Under the pieces are notes generated by a model that was not told the origin of the DNA, did not search any database, and saw nothing but the letters and a program-made list of their open reading frames with translations. A program made the position numbers and the translations under genes. DNA of 22,365 nt from the IMG/VR virus record IMGVR_UViG_3300027607_000138, positions 1 to 22,365 of that record, one strand, 5' to 3'. Shown here piece after piece: positions 2,464 to 22,365 of the stretch. Source of the DNA: a virus. Positions within the stretch are counted from its first letter, which is position 1, and each line of letters starts with the position of its first letter.

Positions 2464-4505
2464 GGGTCCTGACCGGTTCGGGCGCGCCGGGCGCGGGCGA
2501 GCGCGTCGGCGACGGATTGTCTGGAGGTTTCATCGGCGGCCGGCGCGGCGGCCCCCTTCGGTTGCCCGGCCGTCGAGACCATCAGATCCTCGAGATCGAC
2601 TTCGGCCGGTGCGAGCGCGGCCACGGCATCACGGCGCGCCGCCCACTCATCCTCGCCCCAGCGGTTGACCCCCAACCGCACCATGGCCGCGCGTGCCTGG
2701 TTGGCGTTGTCGAGCACCTCGTTGCGCTTGCCGGTGGGCAGGTCCCACTGCCAGCGTACCCGGCCGGCCCGGCGCACCATGACGCGGCGTTCGGAGACGA
2801 GCTGCTGCCAGAAATCGTCGCCCATGCCGGCGGGCAGATCGACGTAGCCGGGCCGGGCCGGATCGGTCTTCTTCAGGTGGCGCATCAGCCGGAGCTTGAA
2901 CTCGGAGGCGTTGAAGGTGAAGAACCGGTTCGCGTAGGGCCGCCGTTTCTTGCGCCCGCGCTTGTCGGTCTCGTAGGAGACCTGCAGAAGCAGCGGCGCA
3001 TTGTCCTGGTTGCCGCCGCGCACCATGATCACCTTCGAGCGCGGGTGCTTCTTGGCCCAGTCCCACACATCGTTGGTCGAGTAGTTGCCGTCGATCGCCG
3101 TCATGTCGACGGGCCGGGCGAGACCGCTCTCGTCGGTCCATTTGCGGGCGATCAGCGCATCGAGCGCCGCCCTGATCTCGGGCTCGGATACATGACCCGA
3201 ATGTTCCTCGGCGCCGGGACCGAAGCGCCCGGTCCGTCCATCGAACCGGCCGTGATCGATCGGCGCCGCGTAGGCAAACTCGCCGAACCCCCACAGGGTC
3301 CATTCGACCCAGCTTTCCTGAACGTCGATGCCGAGGCAAAGGACGAGCGCGCGATCGGGCACCGTGCGCTTACGGCGGGCATTTTCCTCGGCCCTGTCGC
3401 GCAGCATCTCCCAGTCGACCGCGGCCTGGTCGAACACCATCGGCAGGCCGAGCGAATCGTTGAAGAACGTCTGCTCGATCGACCGGCGCTCGGCCTGGTC
3501 GGCGTCCTCGGCCGCTCCGTTCTGCACCTTGGCCCAGCCGCGCGCGATCGCCGACCAGCTCTCCAGCGGTGAATAGGCCATCCAGATATGGAACGACCGG
3601 TGCCAGTTCTTCCGCTCGGGATGGCGCGCGACCCAGTGCGCGCCGTTGGCCGGGTCGACCATCCATGCCCGGTGGCGTTCCTCGATGCGACCGGCGCAGG
3701 CGATGCACCGGAAATGCGCGTCCTCAGGGTTCTCCGGATCAAGGTGGTCGCGCATGTTCTCCCATTCGAGCGGCTGGAACGCGCCGCAATGCGGGCACGG
3801 CACGTGATAGCTTTCCTGGCTGCCCTCGTTGAACGATCGCGTGATCCGGCATCCCGGCGACAGAAGGGGCGTGGACAGCTTGAAGAACTTCGCCTGCGCG
3901 GAAGCCTTGCCCCGGCTCTCGGCCTGCACCTCGGGGTCGCCGGCCGAATTGTCCTCCCATTTGCCGAGATCGTCGTGAACCTGCTTGGGGCAGGTCATCT
4001 GCGACAGGTTGGCGGCCGAGTTGGCGCCGGCCACCTGGATCGCGCCGCGCCCGTCGCTGCGCTCCTTGTAACGCACCGAGCTGCCGCCATCGCGCGACCG
4101 CTCCGGAAACAGCGTGCGCAGATGCGCCGATTCGCGGATCATCGGCGTCAGCTTCTGCTTGGACCACCGGTCGCCATTCTCCTCGGTGGGGTGCACGTAG
4201 AGGAACAGGCACGGGGCAAGGTCGAGCGTGCCGAGCGTGAAGACGTTGGCGAGCACGGTGCCGCCGACCTGGGCGGACTTGCGCAGCGTCACGTAGCGGC
4301 ACGGCTCCTCGGGCGACAGCGCGTTCAGGATCTCCGTGAAGAACGGAAACAGCCTTTCATTGTATGCGCCGGGGAAGTCCGAGCTGGTCTCGGTGAATCG
4401 GATGTTTCGCTTGGCCCAGGCCAGATAGTCGACCGGCGGCGGCGGCTCGGTAACCTCCGCCAGGACTTTGGCCAGAAGGCGTTCGGGATTGTAGAGCAGC
4501 GTCAC
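2460..4505 (-). CDS. terminase large subunit (GpA family)
   Basis: A 681-residue DNA-packaging ATPase/nuclease that cuts concatemeric DNA and drives it into the prohead through the portal. Visible features: a Walker A-like KSAQVGGT at residues 76-83 (the GpA family uses a deviant P-loop), a Walker B-like VHDDLGKWED at about 176-185, and a zinc-binding set C237-x2-C240 with C267-x2-C270, as in lambda gpA. A C-terminal nuclease domain is suggested by LGIDVQ near 397-402 and the AIDGNYSTNDVWDWAKKH segment (about 468-485). The start is GTG at 4505, overlapping the TGA of the small subunit gene. Length is normal for GpA-type terminases (about 640-700). GpA-type terminases usually make cohesive (cos) ends, so a cos site is expected near the small subunit gene. 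Confidence 0.95.
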   Translation of the reverse strand: MTLLYNPERLLAKVLAEVTEPPPPVDYLAWAKRNIRFTETSSDFPGAYNERLFPFFTEILNALSPEEPCRYVTLRKSAQVGGTVLANVFTLGTLDLAPCLFLYVHPTEENGDRWSKQKLTPMIRESAHLRTLFPERSRDGGSSVRYKERSDGRGAIQVAGANSAANLSQMTCPKQVHDDLGKWEDNSAGDPEVQAESRGKASAQAKFFKLSTPLLSPGCRITRSFNEGSQESYHVPCPHCGAFQPLEWENMRDHLDPENPEDAHFRCIACAGRIEERHRAWMVDPANGAHWVARHPERKNWHRSFHIWMAYSPLESWSAIARGWAKVQNGAAEDADQAERRSIEQTFFNDSLGLPMVFDQAAVDWEMLRDRAEENARRKRTVPDRALVLCLGIDVQESWVEWTLWGFGEFAYAAPIDHGRFDGRTGRFGPGAEEHSGHVSEPEIRAALDALIARKWTDESGLARPVDMTAIDGNYSTNDVWDWAKKHPRSKVIMVRGGNQDNAPLLLQVSYETDKRGRKKRRPYANRFFTFNASEFKLRLMRHLKKTDPARPGYVDLPAGMGDDFWQQLVSERRVMVRRAGRVRWQWDLPTGKRNEVLDNANQARAAMVRLGVNRWGEDEWAARRDAVAALAPAEVDLEDLMVSTAGQPKGAAAPAADETSRQSVADALARARRARTGQDP

Positions 4506-9308: not shown

Positions 9309-10078
9309 GGTGAGGCTCCGTTTTCATCGCCCGGCGTACCGGCGGCTTCGCCGCCTGCCGGGCTCCGGCCCGAAGGGGCCGACCCCGGATCGCAGTCCGA
9401 GGCAGGCGCGCCGCCACCGCGCCCCTCGTTCTTCATCGCCTCGAGCATGGCGTTGGCGGCGGGCCAGTCGACGCGCAGCGACAACCGCTTGAGCCCGTGC
9501 CAGGGCCCCATGATCGCCCCGCCGAAGGCGGCGGCGCGGCGCAGCGTCTCGATCTCCATGCGCACGTCGACCGCGTCGACCAGGCCCGCCCGCCAGCGGT
9601 CGCCCTTCTTGCGGGCGCGCTTTTTGGGCAGAGGACAGCCCGGCCCGGCCACCGTCGCGACAAGCCGTGCGGCGCGATCGTCGTCATCCGCAAAGAGGCC
9701 GCTGACCGGCAGGAGACGCGCCGGATCGTCGGTCACGCCACCGCTCGCCAGCCAGCGATCGGCGATCCGGTCGAGCGCCCGGCCCAGCGCGCCGAGGGCG
9801 GCGTCCCGGCTTGCGAAGAACCAGCCCGCCGGCAGCACGGTGCGCCCCGCACCGATCGTTGGCGCCAGCACCCAGGTGAAGCCGCGCACGGTGCCGAACC
9901 GCCCGCGCAGCGGATCGCCGCCCAGCTCCATCGGCCGCCCGGCCTGCCCCAGACCCGATCCGGGGTCCGGCGCGATGCAGGGCACCACGGCCAGCGTGCC
10001 GAACGCCTCGGCGGCCAGCACCATCCGATGGCCGCCCGAGACCATCGGCACGGAGATTTGTTCGGGCACGCGGGTCAT
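9305..10078 (-). CDS. unknown phage protein with repeat-derived C-terminus
   Basis: A 257-residue protein from ATG 10078, with an AGAGG about 8 bases upstream. No family recognised. It is soluble-looking, with a glycine-rich N-terminal half (VRGFTWVLAPTIGAGRTVLP, about 64-83), a central acidic patch (FADDDDRAARLVA), a very basic stretch (PKKRARKKGDRWRAG, about 151-165) and a helix MEIETLRRAAAFGGAIMGPW. The last about 35 residues (from GRGGGAPASD on) are encoded by palindromic repeat sequence and are probably not part of the fold. The TGA overlaps the DnaA-like ATG. Position within the replication block suggests a DNA-metabolism role, but this is only context. Confidence 0.6.
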   Translation of the reverse strand: MTRVPEQISVPMVSGGHRMVLAAEAFGTLAVVPCIAPDPGSGLGQAGRPMELGGDPLRGRFGTVRGFTWVLAPTIGAGRTVLPAGWFFASRDAALGALGRALDRIADRWLASGGVTDDPARLLPVSGLFADDDDRAARLVATVAGPGCPLPKKRARKKGDRWRAGLVDAVDVRMEIETLRRAAAFGGAIMGPWHGLKRLSLRVDWPAANAMLEAMKNEGRGGGAPASDCDPGSAPSGRSPAGGEAAGTPGDENGASP

Positions 10079-10230
10079 GGGTTTGCCTCTTTGTCGCTCA
10101 CGGTGTCGGCCGGTCGGCCTCGCTCGCTCCCGGCCAAAGGGCCGGACGGGCAGTCGCCCTTGCGGCCTTCGGCCGGGCCCTCGTCGTCGGCCTGTCGAAA
10201 GGGCCTGTCCTGAGCCTGCCGAAGGATCAT
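10075..10230 (-). CDS. 51-codon coupled ORF made mostly of palindromic repeats
   Basis: The frame starts with an ATG at 10230 that overlaps the methyltransferase TGA (ATGA), with GGAGG 7 bases upstream. It ends with a TGA overlapping the next ATG at 10078. Its first codons (MILRQAQDRPFRQADDEG) are translated family A repeats and the next part (KGDCPSGPLAGSERGRPADT) is translated family C repeat. No fold is expected. The repeats therefore seem to have entered the gene junction while both coupled start/stop overlaps survived. It may serve only to carry ribosomes across, or encode nothing useful. Confidence 0.4.
   Translation of the reverse strand: MILRQAQDRPFRQADDEGPAEGRKGDCPSGPLAGSERGRPADTVSDKEANP
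10118..10225. repeat. family C copy 2 and family A copy 1, adjacent
   Basis: Family C (CCGGCCAAAGGGCCGGACGG) is followed by a ttcggccg palindrome and then by two family A units at 10191-10225 (CCTGTCGAAAGG and CCTGAGCCTGCCGAAGG). Together they make up nearly the whole 51-codon frame at 10075-10230. Confidence 0.65.
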
Positions 10231-13978: not shown

Positions 13979-14896
13979 TCAGTCTTCCGGTGCGCCTTCG
14001 AAGGCGGGCAGACTGGTGGCCTTGGCGGCGGCGTGAAGGCTCTTCTGAACCTGATCGCGCAGCCAGAACTGCCAGCGATAGAGCTGATAGAACCAGACGA
14101 TCTCGCCGCCCTTGAGCCGGTAGCGAAGCCGCGCGGGAATGCGCACCGGCTCGCCGTCGATGAAGGCCGGCACCGACACCATGAAGATGCCGGGAATGGT
14201 GATCCGTTCGCCCTTCGCATCGGTGTGTTCGGAGGTGAACTCGACCGTGCGTTCGCCGGTCTGGAGACGTTCGGACCGCTTGGCCTTGCCGCCGATGAAC
14301 ACTTCCAGCTCACGGCTGAGCATGATCAGCTCCGACGGGGTCGCGAACTTCTCCTTGAAGAGCGGTTCGAACTCGTTCCTCTCGCCGTCATAGGGGGAGG
14401 CCAGTTCGGCCGCGTGCTCTTCGATGAAGGCCGCGAACGCCAACTGCTCCATCGGCTGGCCGTCGCCCGAGACCCACGCCTTGAACTCGTCGGTCAGCGG
14501 AAACGCATACGCGATGCGGTGCTGCATCCAGCGCGGTTCATGGGCGACGGTGTGATAGTCGATCACCGCCGTCAGTTTCGGATCGGGCCACTGGGTGGCG
14601 CCGAACAGCACCGAATCGTCGGTCTTGTGGCGCTTGGTCAGTTCGATGAAGCTTTCCAGCGTGTCGGCGCGGGCGGTCCCGACGGTGCGACCGGGCAACT
14701 GACGATAGGCGTCGATCTGGTCCCGCAGGGCCTTGAAGGTCTGGGTGCGCCGGTCGAAAGCCAGCGGCACCTTTTCCGGCAGGCCCTCGCCGAGGCCCTC
14801 GATCTGGACGATCTGGACATGCGGGGCGCTGGCCTCGGTGCCGAGGCGCGCCAAGGCCTCGACCGCCTGCGGGTCGGGAAGTTCGGTCTTCGACAT
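13979..14896 (-). CDS. DUF2303-like phage protein
   Basis: A 305-residue protein starting MSKTELPDPQAVEAL at ATG 14896, with AAAGGA 7 bases upstream. A GTG at 14926, overlapping the upstream TGA, would add ten residues. It resembles the DUF2303 family of phage proteins: a central region with HTDDSVLF-type and FAAFIEEHAAEL segments (about 155-170), a beta-strand-rich part (ITIPGIFMVSVPAF) and the characteristic end VRIPARLRYRLKGGEIVWFY followed by QLYRWQFWLRDQVQ. Members occur in early regions of phages near recombination or DNA-modification genes; their biochemical role is not established. Here it precedes the methyltransferase in the same transcript. Confidence 0.75.
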   Translation of the reverse strand: MSKTELPDPQAVEALARLGTEASAPHVQIVQIEGLGEGLPEKVPLAFDRRTQTFKALRDQIDAYRQLPGRTVGTARADTLESFIELTKRHKTDDSVLFGATQWPDPKLTAVIDYHTVAHEPRWMQHRIAYAFPLTDEFKAWVSGDGQPMEQLAFAAFIEEHAAELASPYDGERNEFEPLFKEKFATPSELIMLSRELEVFIGGKAKRSERLQTGERTVEFTSEHTDAKGERITIPGIFMVSVPAFIDGEPVRIPARLRYRLKGGEIVWFYQLYRWQFWLRDQVQKSLHAAAKATSLPAFEGAPED

Positions 14897-14922
14897 GGAC
14901 GTTTCCTTTCGGTTGCTGGAGG

Positions 14923-15290
14923 TCACGACGAAACGGAATTCGCCTCGGCGTCATCGTCGTCATCGTCGTCGCGGGCGGGCCGGGCGATGAGAACATCGTG
15001 ATCTGGCTGGGGTGCTCGACCGACAACATGCCGTCGTCGAGCCAGAACGGGGTGCGGGCGAACTTGGCCGTGTCGGGCAGCTTGGACTTGACGTCGGCAT
15101 GGACATCGACGCGGCCGAGTTCGTGGACGAACTTGACCTTCAGCGTGATCTCGGCGGAGGCCTTGGTGCCCTCCGGCACCTCCTCGAGCGCGGCCAGACA
15201 GGTTTCCATCTCGGTGGTCAGGCGGGAGGCGACATCGCCCCGGCTGAGGATGTTGAGCATTTCGGCGAAGGTGCGGGTCAGGCGTCCCAT
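14923..15290 (-). CDS. small conserved early protein with probable frameshift near its end
   Basis: The protein starts MGRLTRTFAEMLNILSRGD at ATG 15290, with AAAGGA 6 bases upstream. It reads well for about 97 residues, through a beta-rich middle (ASAEITLKVKFVHELGRVDV) to SVEHPSQITMF, a pattern typical of small proteins found beside DUF2303 genes. In the original frame translation would then run on for 150 more codons, deep into the DUF2303-like gene, with deteriorating codon use. A -1 shift near 14995-15010 instead gives a short acidic tail with seven Asp codons and a TGA at 14923 that overlaps a GTG start (GTGA), matching the junction style of this phage. I therefore end the gene there. The shift may be a mutation, a sequencing error or programmed. 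Confidence 0.6.
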
Positions 15291-15979
15291 GGCTGGTCCT
15301 TTCGGGTCTTGCGGGTGGTTCGAACGACGAACGGCGCGCCGGATGCCCGTCCCGTGCCGGCGGCCAGATGGACCGCGCAGTGGGTGGCCTCGCGCCGGCC
15401 GGGCCGCGCCCGGCGGTCGACCACCGGTGCGCCGCAACAGGCCATGGACGGCCCGCCGGATGCGTCCGTCAGATCGACCGGCCAGCGGCACTGGCCCTTC
15501 GCCAGGTCGCTGAAGGGGGTTGGGTTGACTGGTGCATCGGGCGCCGCACCACCGCCTTCGGCGGCTACGCCCTTGCAACCTTCGGCCGAGCCCTCACCCT
15601 GAGCCTGTCGAAGGGGCCTGTCCTGAGCCTGTCGAAGGGCCGGAAACAGGTCGGGATGGTCGCGCAGATAGGTGCGCACGGCCGCCGGCGTCCGGTCCAG
15701 CGCGGCCGCGATCGTCGTCATCGACAGGCGGCGACCGACCAGTTCGACCAGCCGCGCCCGCTCCGGCCCGGTCCACGGCCGCGCGCGTGACAGCTGGGTC
15801 CCGCGCCCGCGCTTTTGAGGAACCCCGCCATGCCCGCCCGGCGAAGCCGGCAAGCGCGACTGCGCGTCGGCCCCTTTTAGCCGGAGCCCGGCAGGCCGCG
15901 TCGCGGCCGGTGCGCCGGGCGATACATGATCAGGACAAAGCCGCCTGAAGTTCGGCGATGGCCGCGGCGACCCGGTCAC
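15278..15979 (-). CDS. GcrA-like regulator with repeat inserted between its domains
   Basis: A 233-residue frame from GTG 15979 (AGGTG 5 bases upstream). No better start was found, so the N-terminal about 65 residues, partly repeat-derived, are doubtful. PWTGPERARLVELVGRRLSM followed by TTIAAALDRTPAAVRTYLRD is a helix-turn-helix like that of GcrA. The C-terminal GQCRWPV, MACCGAPVV and THCAVHL form the Cys/His pattern of the GcrA C-terminal region (C-K/R-W-P, F-C-G, Y-C-x2-H). GcrA of Caulobacter is a sigma70 cofactor that prefers promoters carrying N6-methyladenine; that is established for the host protein only. Between the two domains lies translated family A repeat (RQAQDRPLRQAQGEGSAEG). 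It overlaps the preceding HTH gene by 50 bases and the next gene by 13. Confidence 0.65.
   Translation of the reverse strand: MTGSPRPSPNFRRLCPDHVSPGAPAATRPAGLRLKGADAQSRLPASPGGHGGVPQKRGRGTQLSRARPWTGPERARLVELVGRRLSMTTIAAALDRTPAAVRTYLRDHPDLFPALRQAQDRPLRQAQGEGSAEGCKGVAAEGGGAAPDAPVNPTPFSDLAKGQCRWPVDLTDASGGPSMACCGAPVVDRRARPGRREATHCAVHLAAGTGRASGAPFVVRTTRKTRKDQPWDA
15596..15642. repeat. palindromic repeat family A, copy 3 (tandem)
   Basis: Two nearly exact units, CCTGAGCCTGTCGAAGG, in tandem, separated by GGCCTGT. They lie inside the GcrA-like gene between its two domains, in frame. A fourth, inverted copy is at 22301-22323. Confidence 0.75.
15838..15905. repeat. palindromic repeat family D, with relatives at 9339-9385 and 16239-16270
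   Basis: The unit CCGGCGAAGCCGGCAAGCGCG is followed by a GGCCCCTTTTAGCCGGAGCC arm. Relatives lie at the 3' end of the gene at 9305 (reverse orientation) and in the N-terminal tail of the HTH gene (16239-16270). The copy here forms the doubtful N-terminus of the GcrA-like frame. Confidence 0.55.
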
Positions 15980-16346: not shown

Positions 16347-16520
16347 GGTGGTGGACGGAAAGGACACAGGCGACCGTTTGGCAAAGGCCGACTGGCCGTC
16401 CGGGCCTTTGCCCGGGAGCCCGCCATGCGCGGCACGCGCATTTGCGGCGGGCGAAGGTACACAGGGAACAATCACGGCACACTCTCCATTCGCGGCCGGT
16501 CAGGGCCGCGATACGCGGAT

Positions 16521-16567: not shown

Positions 16568-16748
16568 GCGCCCCGACGGTCAGGGCAGCACGCCGGGGTC
16601 TGGGAGGAAGGGAGTATGGAGGAGGGAATGATCGGCACCACGCCCGCAGGGCGCAAGGCCGACTGGCCGTCCGCGCTTGTGCGCGGGAGCGCGCCAGCCG
16701 CCGAAGGCGGCGGGGCGGCGCGCGAAGAAAGAAAGCAACACACACCCA

Positions 16749-17669: not shown

Positions 17670-17698
17670 ATTAGCGGTACTTTTACCGCCGTTGTCAA
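17670..17698 (-). promoter_or_regulatory. leftward promoter of the early operon (PL/PR-like)
   Basis: On the minus strand a consensus -35 TTGACA (17698-17693), a 17-base spacer and -10 GCTAAT (17675-17670). Transcription should start near 17663, two bases before the ATG at 17661, giving a leaderless mRNA. The first operator (17674-17689) fills the spacer and touches the -10, so a bound repressor would block polymerase. Confidence 0.65.
17674..17689. promoter_or_regulatory. repressor operator O1
   Basis: GCGGTA-CTTT-TACCGC, a perfect 6-bp inverted repeat with a 4-base spacer, located in the spacer of the leftward promoter. The same core recurs three more times in the window's two control regions. 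Binding by the adjacent CI-like repressor or the Cro-like protein is inferred. Confidence 0.75.
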
Positions 17699-17714
17699 CG
17701 GTTATCTTACCGTT
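17697..17714. promoter_or_regulatory. repressor operator O2, with degenerate O3 at 17710-17724
   Basis: AACGGT-TATCTT-ACCGTT: a perfect 6-bp outer inverted repeat matching the O1 core CGGTA-N4-TACCG at all but one arm base. A further degenerate copy (CCGTTTTTTTACCGC) overlaps it on the repressor side. The centre-to-centre distance O1-O2 is 24 bases. Together they recall the tripartite operators of lambdoid switches. Confidence 0.65.
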
Positions 17715-17749
17715 TTTTTACCGCGTCGTGCGCGGGCATCATCGCAGCC

Positions 17750-18394
17750 ATGGACAATCAGATGCTTGCACGCATTGAAGAACGGCTGACGGCGGTCGGG
17801 ATTTCTGCGGCCGAGGCATCACGACGCGCAGGTCTCAGCAAGGATGCGATCCGCAACCTGCAACGCGGACGATCGACAAGCATGCGCGGCGAATCGCTGT
17901 CGCGGCTGGCCCCGGTCCTTGAAACCACGCCCCACTGGCTTCTCACCGGCGAGGACGCGCCGGCCACGCCACGCCACGCCCCGCCCGCCCCGGCGGCGCA
18001 CGAGCTGCCGGTCTTCGGTCAAGTCGCCGGCGCCGCGCTCGGCGCGACGCTCCTGAGCGCCGATCCCGTCGAGACCGTGCCCTGCCCGCCGGGGCTTGCG
18101 CGCGTGCGCGGCGCCTATGCGCTCATCGTCGCGGGCGAATCGATGGCGCCGCGTTGGAGCACCGGCGATATGGTGTTCGTCCATCCACATCGCCCGCCGC
18201 GACCCGGCGACCATATCGTTGTGCGCGAAAAGACCGCCGAGGGCACCCGCGTCACGGTCAAGCGGTTCGACACATGGACCGACCGAGACCTGGTCACCAC
18301 ACAGTACAACCCCGATGGCGAGGTCCGCTTCCGGCGCGACGCCGTCGACGCCGTCCACCGCGTGCTGACAACAAACGAACTGTTCGGCATCTGA
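17750..18394 (+). CDS. CI/LexA-like phage repressor (HTH + S24 peptidase)
   Basis: A 214-residue prophage repressor. The N-terminal XRE helix-turn-helix occupies about 5-62 (ISAAEASRRAGLSKDAIRNL, 18-37, is the HTH core). The linker is Pro/Ala-rich. The S24 (LexA/CI) domain follows from about 90: an Ala-Gly pair A93-G94 (GQVAGAAL) is the probable self-cleavage site, S131 in AGESM the nucleophile, and K171 in TVKRF the general base; GDMVFVHPHRPPRPGDHIVV is the usual core between. RecA-stimulated self-cleavage and SOS induction are expected from the family. The gene is divergent from the Cro-like gene over an 88-base region holding the operators. No good Shine-Dalgarno precedes the ATG, so its translation may be weak or leaderless. 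Confidence 0.92.
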   Translation: MDNQMLARIEERLTAVGISAAEASRRAGLSKDAIRNLQRGRSTSMRGESLSRLAPVLETTPHWLLTGEDAPATPRHAPPAPAAHELPVFGQVAGAALGATLLSADPVETVPCPPGLARVRGAYALIVAGESMAPRWSTGDMVFVHPHRPPRPGDHIVVREKTAEGTRVTVKRFDTWTDRDLVTTQYNPDGEVRFRRDAVDAVHRVLTTNELFGI

Positions 18395-18460: not shown

Positions 18461-19114
18461 ATGCGTTCTGCTGCGGCTTGTCTTGCGATGCTGGTGATCT
18501 CGCCGCCTGCGGTCGCGGACCCGACCCCGCTTCTCTATGCCTGCCGGGTGATCGACGAGCCCGAGCGCCGGCTGGCCTGCTACGACCGGGCGGCCGGTCG
18601 CGCCCCCGACGCCCCTGAGGCGGAAACCGCCGAGGCGACCGAGCCGACGGCAGCCTCACCGGCCGGCGGCAAGCCGGCGTGGGCGACGCGAATCGACACG
18701 TCGCAATTCACCGACGAACAAACGGTCTATCTGACTGTCCGATCCGACAGGCCGGTGGCGTGCCGGTTCGGCCGCGTCGAACCCGTCACGCTCTTCGTGC
18801 GCTGCCTCGAGAACACGACGGCGCTGTTCCTCGACACGCACTGTTTCCTGTCCGATATCCAGGGCTACGGCGATGTCGACATTCGGCTGGACGAGGATGC
18901 GATGCGCACGCTGTCGATGGCCGCATCGACCGACAACAGCGCCCTCGGCCTGTGGCGGGGGGGAAGTTCCATCCCTGTCGTCAGGAGCCTGTTCGGCAAG
19001 GAGCGGCTGATCATGCGCTTCACGCCGTTCAACGAGAGCCCGCTTGAAGCGACCTTCGACATCACCGGCCTTGAAACCGCCATCGACCCTCTGCGCAAGG
19101 CCTGCAACTGGTAG
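18461..19114 (+). CDS. secreted VasI/TagO-like protein beside the repressor
   Basis: A 217-residue protein with a signal peptide (MRSAAACLAMLVISPPAVAD, cleavage near 19-20) and a GGAGAAG Shine-Dalgarno. The opening LLYACRVIDEPERRLACYDR (24-43) and the later VTLFVRCLENTTALFLDTHC, RTLSMAASTDNSALGLWRGG, SSIPVVRSLFGKERLIMRFT and ATFDITGLETAIDPLRKAC segments match the VasI/TagO-like (type VI secretion-associated) family, which is also common in prophages with no secretion system. Four or more cysteines suggest periplasmic disulfides. It follows the repressor in the same direction (66 bases), so it is probably expressed from the prophage as a lysogenic-conversion gene. Its role in prophages is unknown. 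Confidence 0.8.
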   Translation: MRSAAACLAMLVISPPAVADPTPLLYACRVIDEPERRLACYDRAAGRAPDAPEAETAEATEPTAASPAGGKPAWATRIDTSQFTDEQTVYLTVRSDRPVACRFGRVEPVTLFVRCLENTTALFLDTHCFLSDIQGYGDVDIRLDEDAMRTLSMAASTDNSALGLWRGGSSIPVVRSLFGKERLIMRFTPFNESPLEATFDITGLETAIDPLRKACNW

Positions 19115-19728: not shown

Positions 19729-19744
19729 GCGGTACTTTTACCGT
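19729..19744. promoter_or_regulatory. repressor operator O4
   Basis: GCGGTA-CTTT-TACCGT, identical to O1 except for the last base. It lies about 50 bases upstream of the leftward membrane gene and 8 bases upstream of the rightward -35 element. Binding by the CI-like repressor is inferred. Confidence 0.7.
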
Positions 19745-19751
19745 TTAGCGG

Positions 19752-19780
19752 TTGACACGGTAATTTTACCGCTCTACCCT
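19752..19780 (+). promoter_or_regulatory. rightward promoter with operator O5 in the spacer
   Basis: Consensus -35 TTGACA at 19752-19757, a 17-base spacer and -10 TACCCT at 19775-19780. Operator O5 (ACGGTA-ATTT-TACCGC, 19757-19772) fills the spacer, exactly as O1 does at the leftward promoter. It would drive the small gene at 19854 and perhaps the whole plus-strand accessory operon from 20285. Confidence 0.65.
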
Positions 19781-19853: not shown

Positions 19854-20060
19854 ATGAGCAACAGCGCATTTCCCGGTCCGGCACCCGGCGCGCACGGTGT
19901 CACGATCGCGCGATCGCTGGCCGCGCGCGACGGCGCCCTCGCCGGCGTCATTGAAGTCCGGACGGATCGGTCGACCGGCCGTGCGTCAGGATGGCGACGT
20001 ACATGCGCACGAGTTCTTGCACGTCTTCTGACGTGTCCTGGTGCACGGCGAGGTGGGTGA
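19854..20060 (+). CDS. short first ORF after the rightward promoter, possibly truncated
   Basis: A 68-codon frame from ATG 19854 with a good AGAGGAGA Shine-Dalgarno 7 bases upstream and an operator-controlled promoter 75 bases before it. The first 45 residues (MSNSAFPGPAPGAHGVTIAR SLAARDGALAGVIEVRTD, cited in two parts) look natural. The rest is Arg-rich and lies antisense to the oppositely oriented gene ending at 19948, so the original 3' end may have been replaced. No family recognised. It could be a remnant or a short real protein. Confidence 0.45.
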   Translation: MSNSAFPGPAPGAHGVTIARSLAARDGALAGVIEVRTDRSTGRASGWRRTCARVLARLLTCPGARRGG

Positions 20061-20226
20061 TGCGGTCCGCCAGCTCCGAGGCCAATGCAGGATCGGCGTC
20101 GCGCACCGCGTTGGCCGCCGCGTTCAGGACGATGTGCAACCCCTTGATCCGCGCCTCGGCGATCGAGAGCCGCCGCAGGACGGCGTCGGCGAACTCGTCG
20201 ATGTCAACCGTCCGTCGCTCGTCCAT
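19948..20226 (-). CDS. unknown small helical protein
   Basis: A 92-residue protein from ATG 20226, with a very strong GGGGGAGG 5 bases upstream. It is helical, with no Gly runs: DEFADAVLRRLSIAEARIKG, LHIVLNAAANAVRDADPALA and ITHLAVHQDTSEDVQELVRM are its main segments. No family recognised. It is transcribed against the neighbouring plus-strand genes from a 58-base divergent region and overlaps the 3' end of the frame at 19854 by 113 bases. Such antisense placement may be regulatory, or mark an inserted gene. Confidence 0.65.
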   Translation of the reverse strand: MDERRTVDIDEFADAVLRRLSIAEARIKGLHIVLNAAANAVRDADPALASELADRITHLAVHQDTSEDVQELVRMYVAILTHGRSTDPSGLQ

Positions 20227-20284: not shown

Positions 20285-20518
20285 ATGATCCGCACCCGTC
20301 CTGTCCCACCTCATCCTGAGCCCGGCTGCCGCAGGCGGCTCGTCGCGACCATGGCGATGGCCATGCGCGAGATGGCGTTCGCCGGCGAGACCGTCGACGC
20401 CGAGGCGCTGCGCCAGCGCGGCTTCACCGACGCGGCGATCCACAGGCTGGCGCCCGACGCGGTCGTCCGCGCCCGCCGCGACGCCGTCCGGCAGATCGGC
20501 ACGGAGGGCGCGCGATGA
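20285..20518 (+). CDS. unknown small protein, first of the coupled accessory operon
   Basis: A 77-residue protein from ATG 20285 with AAGGAG 9 bases upstream. The N-terminus is Pro/Arg-rich; the rest is helical (RLVATMAMAMREMAFAGETV, then DAEALRQRGFTDAAIHRLAP), with a shape like a small winged or helical DNA-binding unit but no recognised family. Its TGA overlaps the next ATG (ATGA). From here every gene to the right end is overlapped with the next, so they form one unit. Confidence 0.65.
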   Translation: MIRTRPVPPHPEPGCRRRLVATMAMAMREMAFAGETVDAEALRQRGFTDAAIHRLAPDAVVRARRDAVRQIGTEGAR

Positions 20519-20829
20519 ACGATGCAGCGTACACGGAAGCCGAGCGGCTGGACGCGCGCTACGAGGCGTGGATCGCCAGCGGCGGCCCGGCAAAGACGAC
20601 CCGGCGGCAAGCCGAATTGGCCGACGCGGCTCTCGACGCGCTGATCGCGGCGGGCTGGACCATCCTTCAGCAGCGCATGATCCCCGAGTTCGACATCGAG
20701 GTGATGGAGGCGGTCATCCGCAAGGGCGACCGTCTCGAACTGATCAGCTGGTCGACCTTCAACAAGGGCTGGATGCGCAAGGCCGCATCGGGCTGGACGA
20801 TCTTTTTCGAGCGGGAGTACGCGTCATGA
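20515..20829 (+). CDS. unknown 104-residue accessory protein
   Basis: Starts at ATG 20515 (ATGA overlap, GGAGG about 9 bases upstream). Helical N-terminus (AYTEAERLDARYEAWIASGG; AELADAALDALIAAGWTILQ) followed by a beta-rich, aromatic C-terminal half (EFDIEVMEAVIRKGDRLELI and MRKAASGWTIFFEREY). Balanced composition and natural codon use indicate a real protein. No family recognised. It is directly upstream of and coupled to the Acb2-like gene, so a defence-related role is worth considering but is not shown. Confidence 0.7.
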   Translation: MNDAAYTEAERLDARYEAWIASGGPAKTTRRQAELADAALDALIAAGWTILQQRMIPEFDIEVMEAVIRKGDRLELISWSTFNKGWMRKAASGWTIFFEREYAS

Positions 20830-21080
20830 GCAGCATCGACAGCACATCGGACCAGCGCACGGCGAACAATGCCGTGCGGCATCGGTACCGGACGCTCAGC
20901 GACGCCGAGAAGGCGCAGATGCAAGAGATCAAGGATCTCGGCGCGGCCTTCATCGCCAAGTGTCACGCGATCGGCGGCACCGATCCGCAATCCGAACGGG
21001 CCGGCAGCCGCGATCTGTCGCTCGCCATCACGCACGCCGAAGACGCGGTCATGCGCGCCGTGCGGCACATCACGAAATGA
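20826..21080 (+). CDS. acb2: Acb2-like cyclic-nucleotide-binding anti-CBASS protein
   Basis: An 84-residue protein from ATG 20826 (ATGA overlap). Residues about 18-84 match the Acb2/Tad1 hairpin domain pattern: YRTLSDAEKAQMQEIKDLGA, a long first helix opening with Y-R-x-L-S, a short linker, and the closing helix SRDLSLAITHAEDAVMRAVR-HITK with the typical R-x-x-S-L-A-x-T-x-x-E-x-A-x-x-x-A-x-x-x-I-T spacing. Acb2 hexamers sequester cyclic di- and trinucleotides made by CBASS (and related signals), preventing host abortive infection; this is established for the family. The first 17 residues are a polar, disordered-looking extension. It sits in an operon of small accessory genes, as anti-defence genes often do. 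The family call is by pattern; ligand range cannot be read from the sequence. Confidence 0.7.
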   Translation: MSSIDSTSDQRTANNAVRHRYRTLSDAEKAQMQEIKDLGAAFIAKCHAIGGTDPQSERAGSRDLSLAITHAEDAVMRAVRHITK

Positions 21081-21325
21081 GGCCGGCCATGGCAGATTTC
21101 AGCATCACGGTGAGTGACAGCACCAAGACATCGAACAGGCTGTTGTGGGACGGGATCGTTCGCGCGAATGACGGGACGATCGCGCAGGAGGCCGTCGCCG
21201 ATCAGATCATCGGGCGACTGTCGCGCGAGACAGGCCTGCCAGCCTCTTTGCTCCATGTCCACGTGACAGAAATTGTGCCGCACCTGTCGCCAGATCTCGT
21301 CGTCAACAGGGAGTACGTCGCATGA
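21077..21325 (+). CDS. unknown small accessory protein
   Basis: An 82-residue protein from ATG 21077 (ATGA overlap with the Acb2-like gene); an ATG at 21089 (MADFSITVSDSTKTSNRLLW) is the alternative start. It has an N-terminal beta strand, a helix with DGTIAQEAVADQIIGRLSRE and a second strand LLHVHVTEIVPHLS. No family recognised; the alpha/beta pattern suggests a compact domain. Its TGA overlaps the next ATG. Confidence 0.65.
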   Translation: MRPAMADFSITVSDSTKTSNRLLWDGIVRANDGTIAQEAVADQIIGRLSRETGLPASLLHVHVTEIVPHLSPDLVVNREYVA

Positions 21326-21495
21326 AGCGCGCTCCCCTCCCCGACAATCTGCTGGTCTGGACACCCCAGCACCAGCGCTGGTGGACCGAATTCACCGTCA
21401 CGGCGACGCTCGTCCTGGCCGCCTGCGCCGGCGCCTTCGTCGCGCTCTGCTTCAACGACTGGTCGCGCGCGCTCGCAGCACTGGGGGTGGGGTGA
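21322..21495 (+). CDS. small single-span membrane protein
   Basis: A 57-residue protein from ATG 21322 (ATGA overlap). The N-terminus is polar and Trp-rich (VWTPQHQRWW, 12-21); one transmembrane helix follows (EFTVTATLVLAACAGAFVAL, about 23-42, continuing to F44), then a short tail. The TGA shares its A with the ATG of the next gene (TGATG). Phage operons often hold such small membrane proteins; no family recognised. Confidence 0.65.
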   Translation: MKRAPLPDNLLVWTPQHQRWWTEFTVTATLVLAACAGAFVALCFNDWSRALAALGVG

Positions 21496-21629
21496 TGTTC
21501 GGTCTGACGTGGTGGAGCGGCATGGCGCTATGCGCGGCCGGCGGCGCGCTGGTTACCACGGACGCGGTGTCCGGCGCCATGCTGGTCGTGGCGGGCTGCC
21601 TGGCTGCAATCGGAGCGTGTCGGTCATGA
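21495..21629 (+). CDS. tiny hydrophobic protein
   Basis: A 44-residue protein from ATG 21495 (TGATG with the previous gene, GGGGGTGGGG upstream). Almost entirely hydrophobic with Gly and Ala: MFGLTWWSGMALCAAGGALV then a second segment AMLVVAGCLAAIGA. One or two membrane helices. Its TGA overlaps the MazG-like ATG (ATGA). It makes a pair with the preceding small membrane protein. Confidence 0.6.
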   Translation: MFGLTWWSGMALCAAGGALVTTDAVSGAMLVVAGCLAAIGACRS

Positions 21630-21922
21630 AGGTCATTGATCGCGGTTTCGACATTGCGCTCGAGACATTCGCCTATGATGTCATCACCGAGGCGCTGAAA
21701 GCCCGCGCCAAGTTCCCCGCAGATGACAATCCAACCATCGCGGCCCTTGCCGAGGAAGTCGGCGAGGCGGCCAAGGCTGCCCTGCACATCCGGGAGGGCA
21801 AGTCGAACGACTGGTGGGCGGTGTATGCCGAATGCGTTCAGGTGGCCGCCATGGCCGCTCGCCTGGCAATCGAGGGCGACGTTACGGCGAAGGCGGTGCC
21901 GACGGCGGAGAACTGCCAATGA
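21626..21922 (+). CDS. MazG-like nucleotide pyrophosphohydrolase
   Basis: A 98-residue protein resembling small phage MazG-type enzymes. The metal-binding signature LAEEVGEAAKAALHI (about 41-55) supplies E-E-x2-E, and the second helix AECVQVAAMAARLAIEGD (about 69-86) carries the acidic residue of the E-x2-Q pattern. Such enzymes hydrolyse nucleoside triphosphates or signal nucleotides to monophosphates and pyrophosphate. In phages they adjust dNTP pools or dampen (p)ppGpp; which one applies cannot be told. It shares the operon with an Acb2-like sponge, so both may act on nucleotide signals. Coupled at both ends by ATGA. Confidence 0.7.
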   Translation: MKVIDRGFDIALETFAYDVITEALKARAKFPADDNPTIAALAEEVGEAAKAALHIREGKSNDWWAVYAECVQVAAMAARLAIEGDVTAKAVPTAENCQ

Positions 21923-22365
21923 CCGGACAACCCCTTCTCGCGCGGCAGATCACCGAGGCCGCCTCGCATGCCGACCGGGCGACGTTCCTGCTCATGGCGC
22001 CGCATGCGGTGCTGCTCGCCGCGCCGGGCCCGGTGGCCGACGCCTGCCGCCGGACAGGCTTTCCGATCGGCGCGGACTATGTCGCCGCGATCGTCTCCAT
22101 GCTGCTGGCGACACGCGGCCAGGACGGCCAGGTGCCCGACCGGCACCGCGCCACGGTCGACGGGCTTGAGGCCATGCTGCGCCGCTTCCTGTTCGATCCG
22201 GACGAAGCGCTGATCGCCATGCAGGCCCGCCACGACGCCAAGGCCGGCCGACAGAACCCCGACCTTGTCGGCACGCCCGCCTATGACGCGGCTTGGGAAG
22301 CCCTTCGACAGGCTCAGGACGGGCGCGATGGACCGGCGCGGGACGAGACACCAGACTATGGGTAG
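21919..22365 (+). CDS. unknown accessory protein ending at the window edge
   Basis: A 148-residue protein from ATG 21919 (ATGA overlap) to a TAG at 22363-22365, so it is just complete. Helical N-terminal half (ARQITEAASHADRATFLLMA, FPIGADYVAAIVSMLLATRG) and a central EAMLRRFLFDPDEALIAMQA segment. Near the C-terminus EALRQAQDGRDGPAR is translated family A repeat in the opposite orientation to the other copies. No family recognised. Last gene of the coupled operon visible here. Confidence 0.65.
   Translation: MTGQPLLARQITEAASHADRATFLLMAPHAVLLAAPGPVADACRRTGFPIGADYVAAIVSMLLATRGQDGQVPDRHRATVDGLEAMLRRFLFDPDEALIAMQARHDAKAGRQNPDLVGTPAYDAAWEALRQAQDGRDGPARDETPDYG

Follow-up and report, generated by a model that had tools for sequence, protein, structure and literature searches.

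The window, by which we mean the whole stretch of DNA analysed here, is an entire IMG/VR virus record of 22,365 bases and not an excerpt from a larger genome. It belongs to a temperate phage of alphaproteobacterial type whose terminase is closest to that of Sinorhizobium phage phi2LM21 (59%), in agreement with the prophage setting assumed by an earlier reading based on the letters alone (hereafter the sequence-only reading). A DUF2303 gene is located at 13979–14926, and the last 2 kb carry an operon of small genes on the plus strand. The operon opens with a gene for 77 residues (20285–20518) matching phrog_31312 of unknown function, followed by a gene for 104 residues (20515–20829) that belongs to no family and has one close relative, 88% identical, in a sibling phage described below. 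The stop of this second gene overlaps by 4 nt, as ATGA, with the start codon of the acb2-like gene, suggesting translational coupling. The acb2-like gene runs on the plus strand from the ATG at 20826 to the TGA at 21078–21080 and encodes 84 residues (MSSIDSTSDQRTANNAVRHRYRTLSDAEKAQMQEIKDLGAAFIAKCHAIGGTDPQSERAGSRDLSLAITHAEDAVMRAVRHITK), in the position and with the length given by the sequence-only reading. Downstream follow a gene for 78 residues with no known function (21089–21325), a gene for a MazG-like nucleotide pyrophosphohydrolase of 98 residues (21626–21922) and, up to the end of the record, a gene for 148 residues (21919–22365) matching phrog_16358, which is likewise of unknown function.

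The 84-residue protein had been proposed to belong to the Acb2/Tad1 hairpin family on account of two motifs. Both are present (Y21-R22-T-L24-S25 and R62-D-L-S-L-A67-I-T69-H-A-E72-D-A74), and a Pfam profile search bore the proposal out: PF24729 (Acb2_Tad1_hairpin) matched residues 21–84 over model positions 2–58 of 58 with E=4.4e-18 and 65.7 bits, the curated cut-off being 27 bits. Characterised sponges score 66.1 bits (PaMx33 Acb2, ORF24) and 71.4 bits (T4 Vs.4), so the protein is as typical of the family as they are. A single-protein phmmer search of the PDB yielded chance matches only (a tautomerase and a lipoprotein) and a profile of relatives was needed. With a profile of 19 relatives the best match among 177,635 distinct PDB sequences was PaMx33 Acb2 (E=0.0045), with Vs.4 and Tad1 ranking lower. 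In a profile-profile comparison, four Acb2s from phages of Gammaproteobacteria were matched at 97.8% (E=8e-13), Y21, K36, R62 and T69 falling in register with Acb2 residues. The acb2-like protein had no match in NCBIfam, and neither it nor the tested neighbours matched any PADLOC defence profile. We consider membership of the hairpin family practically certain; the protein clearly adds one more member to a family already known and common in alphaproteobacterial phages.

An AlphaFold2 model built from 53 sequences predicts helices at residues 26–50 and 62–83 with pLDDT above 90. The two long helices are antiparallel and form the hairpin expected by the sequence-only reading, which had named the lack of such a hairpin, combined with the lack of an HMM match, as evidence against itself. 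The hairpin domain (residues 21–84) corresponds to 20886–21077 on the plus strand. In a fold search of the PDB the seven best matches were all chains of Acb2 or Vs.4 and no other fold ranked above them; their E-values were weak (0.4–1.7), which is explained by the small size and two-helix build of the protein. Among the eight best fold matches in a viral structure library, seven were named Acb2/Tad1 hairpin.

We compared the protein with residues of known function in joint and HMMER alignments. Y21 aligns with T4 Y8 and PaMx33 Y11, K36 with T4 K23 and PaMx33 K26, and T69 with T4 T68. R62 aligns with PaMx33 R67; T4 has Asp at this position, so the Arg of the trinucleotide site is not a family-wide feature. 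We take Y11 and K26 of PaMx33 to mark the dinucleotide site and R67 to mark the trinucleotide site. In T4 the Y8A mutant loses cyclic dinucleotide binding, T68M lowers affinity and F82C diminishes binding (PMC12657218, PMC12657230). The position of F82, which stacks on the ligand in T4, is T83 in the protein described here and Ala in PaMx33. K36 and R62 never vary among 53 relatives; Y21 persists in 49, individual relatives having Asp (L006) or Pro (L068) instead. As far as the alignments go, the residues matching known ligand contacts, Y21, K36, R62 and T69, are retained.

With PaMx33 Acb2 (Pseudomonas phage; PDB 8h2j, 8h2x and 8ixz) the protein shares the Pfam family, with hardly any difference in score, the first-helix pattern YRxLSxEE..M..xK.LG..F and the equivalents of Y11, K26 and R67. 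It differs in having only about 22% identity, a shorter stretch between the helices, no QPDSF tail at the C-terminus and an extra conserved N-terminal arm, and in being carried by a phi2LM21-like temperate phage. T4 Vs.4 (an Acb2 of an Escherichia phage; PDB 7uq2) is of the same family and has in common the equivalents of Y8, K23 and T68 and a second helix of the form AKTxxxEAxM, but identity is about 20%, F82 is replaced by Thr, R62 stands where T4 has Asp, and T4 is devoid of the arm. Uncharacterised hairpin proteins from prophages of Rhodobacteraceae and other Alphaproteobacteria (Gemmobacter caeni, Paracoccus cavernae) are 73–81% identical and of the same length, arm included, whereas their phage neighbourhood differs.

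Relatives with 37–84% identity were found on 23 viral contigs and at 37 loci in bacterial genomes. Most of the bacterial loci come from genomes with an alphaproteobacterial name, in the main Rhodobacteraceae and Hyphomicrobiales; the remainder belong to metagenome bins labelled unclassified Proteobacteria, Gammaproteobacteria, WWE3 or Acidobacteria, labels that may be unreliable. Within one order (taken as Rhodobacterales from the genome that seeded it, Gemmobacter caeni) the hairpin domain was detected in 12 of 293 sampled species. The family is therefore already widespread in alphaproteobacterial genomes and phages, besides being curated in Pfam and named in UniProt, and, contrary to what the sequence-only reading had suggested, this copy adds nothing to its known range. 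An Acb2 annotation has also been published for a Microbacterium phage (PMC13348362). No relative was found in plasmid records, so that a plasmid-borne origin has no support here. Relatives are situated in phages and prophages beside DUF2303-type genes (phrog_210), integrase or methyltransferase genes, or within head/connector modules. None of them shares the immediate neighbours of the gene described here, which marks it as a mosaic passenger. We also came across two unannotated Acb2-like genes in named phages: one in Sinorhizobium phage Aussie (L070; OR786373.1, 23629–23865), between the head-tail adaptor and stopper genes, and one in Dunaliella viridis virus SI2 (L071; NC_023841.1, 17428–17658). 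The algal host label of SI2 looks doubtful, since its genome is that of a tailed phage (Caudoviricetes) and its Acb2 is of the alphaproteobacterial type.

Divergence from 18 relatives was determined over the last 80 codons and amounted to 0.35–0.71 synonymous and 0.15–0.23 non-synonymous changes per site. Omega was mostly 0.1–0.3, at the highest 0.47 and below 1 in every comparison, the arm behaving alike. Purifying selection of this kind shows the gene to be a functional protein-coding one.

Ahead of the hairpin lies a conserved arm, residues 6–19 (20841–20882, plus strand), with the consensus S-T-S-D-x-R-T-x-N-N-x-x-R-H. Among 53 relatives R11 is kept in 51, N14 and R18 in 52 each and H19 in 49, and at 75% redundancy the arm, with a mean entropy of 1.28 bits, is better conserved than the first helix with 1.65 bits. 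Its structure is predicted with low confidence: a helix is modelled at residues 9–12, with pLDDT of about 55–58 in the arm. In the joint alignment the arm is missing from both PaMx33 Acb2 and T4 Vs.4. The search method alone does not explain why the arm is so well conserved, because the genome scan for relatives used a pattern of the second helix only and one relative recovered with the hairpin model alone (L076) has the arm as well. The sequence-only reading had described a 17-residue N-terminal extension of this particular copy. An extension does exist, but 20 residues precede the Tyr here compared with 10 in PaMx33 Acb2 and 7 in T4 Vs.4, which gives a true extension of about 10–13 residues relative to the solved homologues; nor is it peculiar to this copy, as the arm marks the whole alphaproteobacterial clade. 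Since it directly precedes the stacking Tyr, one may reasonably guess, though no more than guess, that it acts at the pocket. Tentatively, and with considerable doubt, the clade could be a distinct sponge subfamily in which the arm folds over the pocket and shifts ligand range or affinity relative to the Acb2s of PaMx33 and T4. The conserved arm is the sole feature here that merits separate work.

The acb2-like gene and the gene following it form a cassette that varies by presence and absence. In a sibling phage (L091; IMGVR_UViG_3300030222_000011, a record of 42.8 kb with a terminase 98% identical), the segment corresponding to 20832–21357 on the plus strand is absent, and about 88 bp of repeat-like sequence take its place. 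The flanks align at 89% (20324–20831) and 93% identity (21358–21495), nothing in between was aligned, and the 78-residue gene is missing together with acb2. The hairpin model had no match in the 42.8-kb record of the sibling, although this ends soon after the locus and a copy located past its end would have escaped the search; the same search recovered 16 of 16 known positives. The comparison is direct evidence that acb2 was gained or lost as a unit. Repeat-like elements of 40–75 bp, such as CCTGTCCTGAGCCTGTCGAAGG and AAGGCCGACTGGCCGTCCGGGCCTTTGCCCGGGAGC, also occur between phage genes of the window (9326–9383, 10130–10225, 15568–15640, 15852–15924, 16384–16456, 16655–16727 and 22300–22347), and a similar one is found at the acb2 deletion point of the sibling (3318–3404).

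The explanation that we favour with good confidence is that the acb2-like gene encodes an Acb2-type anti-CBASS sponge and serves a temperate alphaproteobacterial phage as an optional counter-defence cassette. The protein would consist of the two-helix hairpin and the conserved N-terminal arm and, by homology, would be expected to assemble into a compact oligomer; PaMx33 Acb2 is a hexamer. Cyclic dinucleotides of CBASS, and probably trinucleotides as well, would be bound but left uncleaved, and CBASS effectors would stay off during lytic growth. The protein is very likely a nucleotide sponge, and an anti-CBASS function is likely. Hosts of this lineage do possess the presumed target: of 26 genomes carrying an acb2 relative, 8 encode CD-NTases (SMODS), as do 29 of the 293 species sampled from the order named above. 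Within this order the link between hairpin gene and CD-NTase was indistinguishable from chance (2 of 12 species, about 1.2 expected). We counted this against an anti-CBASS sponge, together with the weak E-values of the fold matches, the many relatives that reside in head/tail modules and not in early operons, and the replacement of the ligand-stacking F82 of T4 by T83 here. A small ORF that had no annotation in this environmental phage is thus very probably a counter-defence gene, and alphaproteobacterial phages appear to share a sponge subfamily with a strongly conserved arm that is absent from the PaMx33 and T4 structures; the known concept of sponges is unchanged. The sibling offers a natural plus/minus comparison. 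Sponges of the Acb2 kind can trigger the Panoptes defence, and gain and loss at this locus would fit this known evolutionary dilemma.

Other explanations of the conserved hairpin were weighed against an anti-CBASS sponge. The protein might be a sponge whose natural ligand lies outside CBASS: the gcADPR of Thoeris, the cA3 of type III CRISPR or some further cyclic nucleotide. The hairpin domain is common to Acb2 and Tad1 (Thoeris anti-defence 1), reviews report broad nucleotide binding by this group, and a different ligand range could result from the clade-specific arm and from the R77/H70 signature that the Rhodobacteraceae-type subclade carries. In Tad1, however, an N-terminal antiparallel beta-sheet precedes the two helices (PMC12043709). 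This sheet is missing here: the AlphaFold model contains no beta-strands and just 25 residues lie ahead of helix 1, so that the layout is Acb2-like and not Tad1-like. Given that the residues aligned with Acb2 contacts are retained too, we regard a target other than CBASS as rather unlikely.

A virion or assembly accessory protein with a hairpin fold would account for the relatives positioned between capsid and head-tail connector genes in phage Aussie and several prophages, but other relatives are neighbours of DUF2303-type, integrase or methyltransferase genes and the gene described here is part of a small-gene operon. Moreover, the sibling phage does without it, which makes it dispensable, and the invariant residues are those aligned with ligand contacts; a structural role is accordingly very improbable. 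Loss of activity, to which the replaced T4 F82 and the relatives devoid of the Tyr could point, appears more improbable still, as Y21, K36, R62 and T69 are all present and omega is well below 1 throughout.

A second counter-defence gene may be present in the operon. Phage MazG-like proteins (Atd1) have been reported to block TIR-STING signalling, and by analogy the MazG-like protein encoded at 21626–21922 may act in a similar way. It contains an EExGE motif and has no Pfam match alone, but becomes detectable via its relatives, one of which (L084) matches PF03819 MazG just under the cut-off (E=5e-4); a profile match to the MazG structure 1vmg was obtained at E=4e-4, and its fold matches were weak and mostly to the MazG superfamily. 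PaMx33 also carries a MazG-type gene, three genes from acb2, and the proximity in both phages is suggestive only.

The sequence-only reading had further placed the acb2-like gene under a repressor operator. A CI/LexA-type repressor with a helix-turn-helix and an S24 peptidase domain is encoded at 17750–18394 on the plus strand (PF00717, E=3.7e-11; phrog_4 transcriptional repressor, 1.9e-23), and the operator indeed exists. The palindrome CGGTAMTTTTACCG is exact at 17675, 19730 and 19758 and degenerate at 17699 and 17710. Allowing up to three mismatches on both strands we counted 10 matches, 1.7 being expected; 100 shuffled sequences all gave fewer than ten. Nine of the ten fall into two clusters, one adjoining the S24 repressor and the other ahead of the rightward genes. 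The first (17675–17723), between the repressor and the leftward operon, consists of CGGTACTTTTACCG and two degenerate copies; the second (19730–19771) comprises two copies 28 bp apart around the TTGACA of a rightward promoter-like site, TTGACA-N17-TACCCT, which was read by eye and not reported by a promoter scan. The repressor of the sibling aligns in its C-terminal part (70%) but not in its DNA-binding part, and the exact CGGTAMTTTTACCG was missing from the 20 kb of the sibling examined, which fits a cognate repressor-operator pair.

The operator is located 1.1 kb upstream of acb2, and a minus-strand ORF with a good ribosome-binding site and no family (19948–20226) intervenes between its promoter and the acb2 operon. 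For this reason, and because the promoter scan did not recover the site, we do not adopt operator-driven expression of acb2 as shown; it is plausible that the gene is repressed in the lysogen. On the plus strand another ORF (19854–20060), likewise with a good ribosome-binding site, runs into the opposing one, and the arrangement looks like a mosaic junction truncating the first gene after the operator. Adjoining the repressor at 18461–19114 on the plus strand, we observed a gene for a VasI-like protein, a type associated with type VI secretion (PF11319, E=1.8e-20; phrog_1848).
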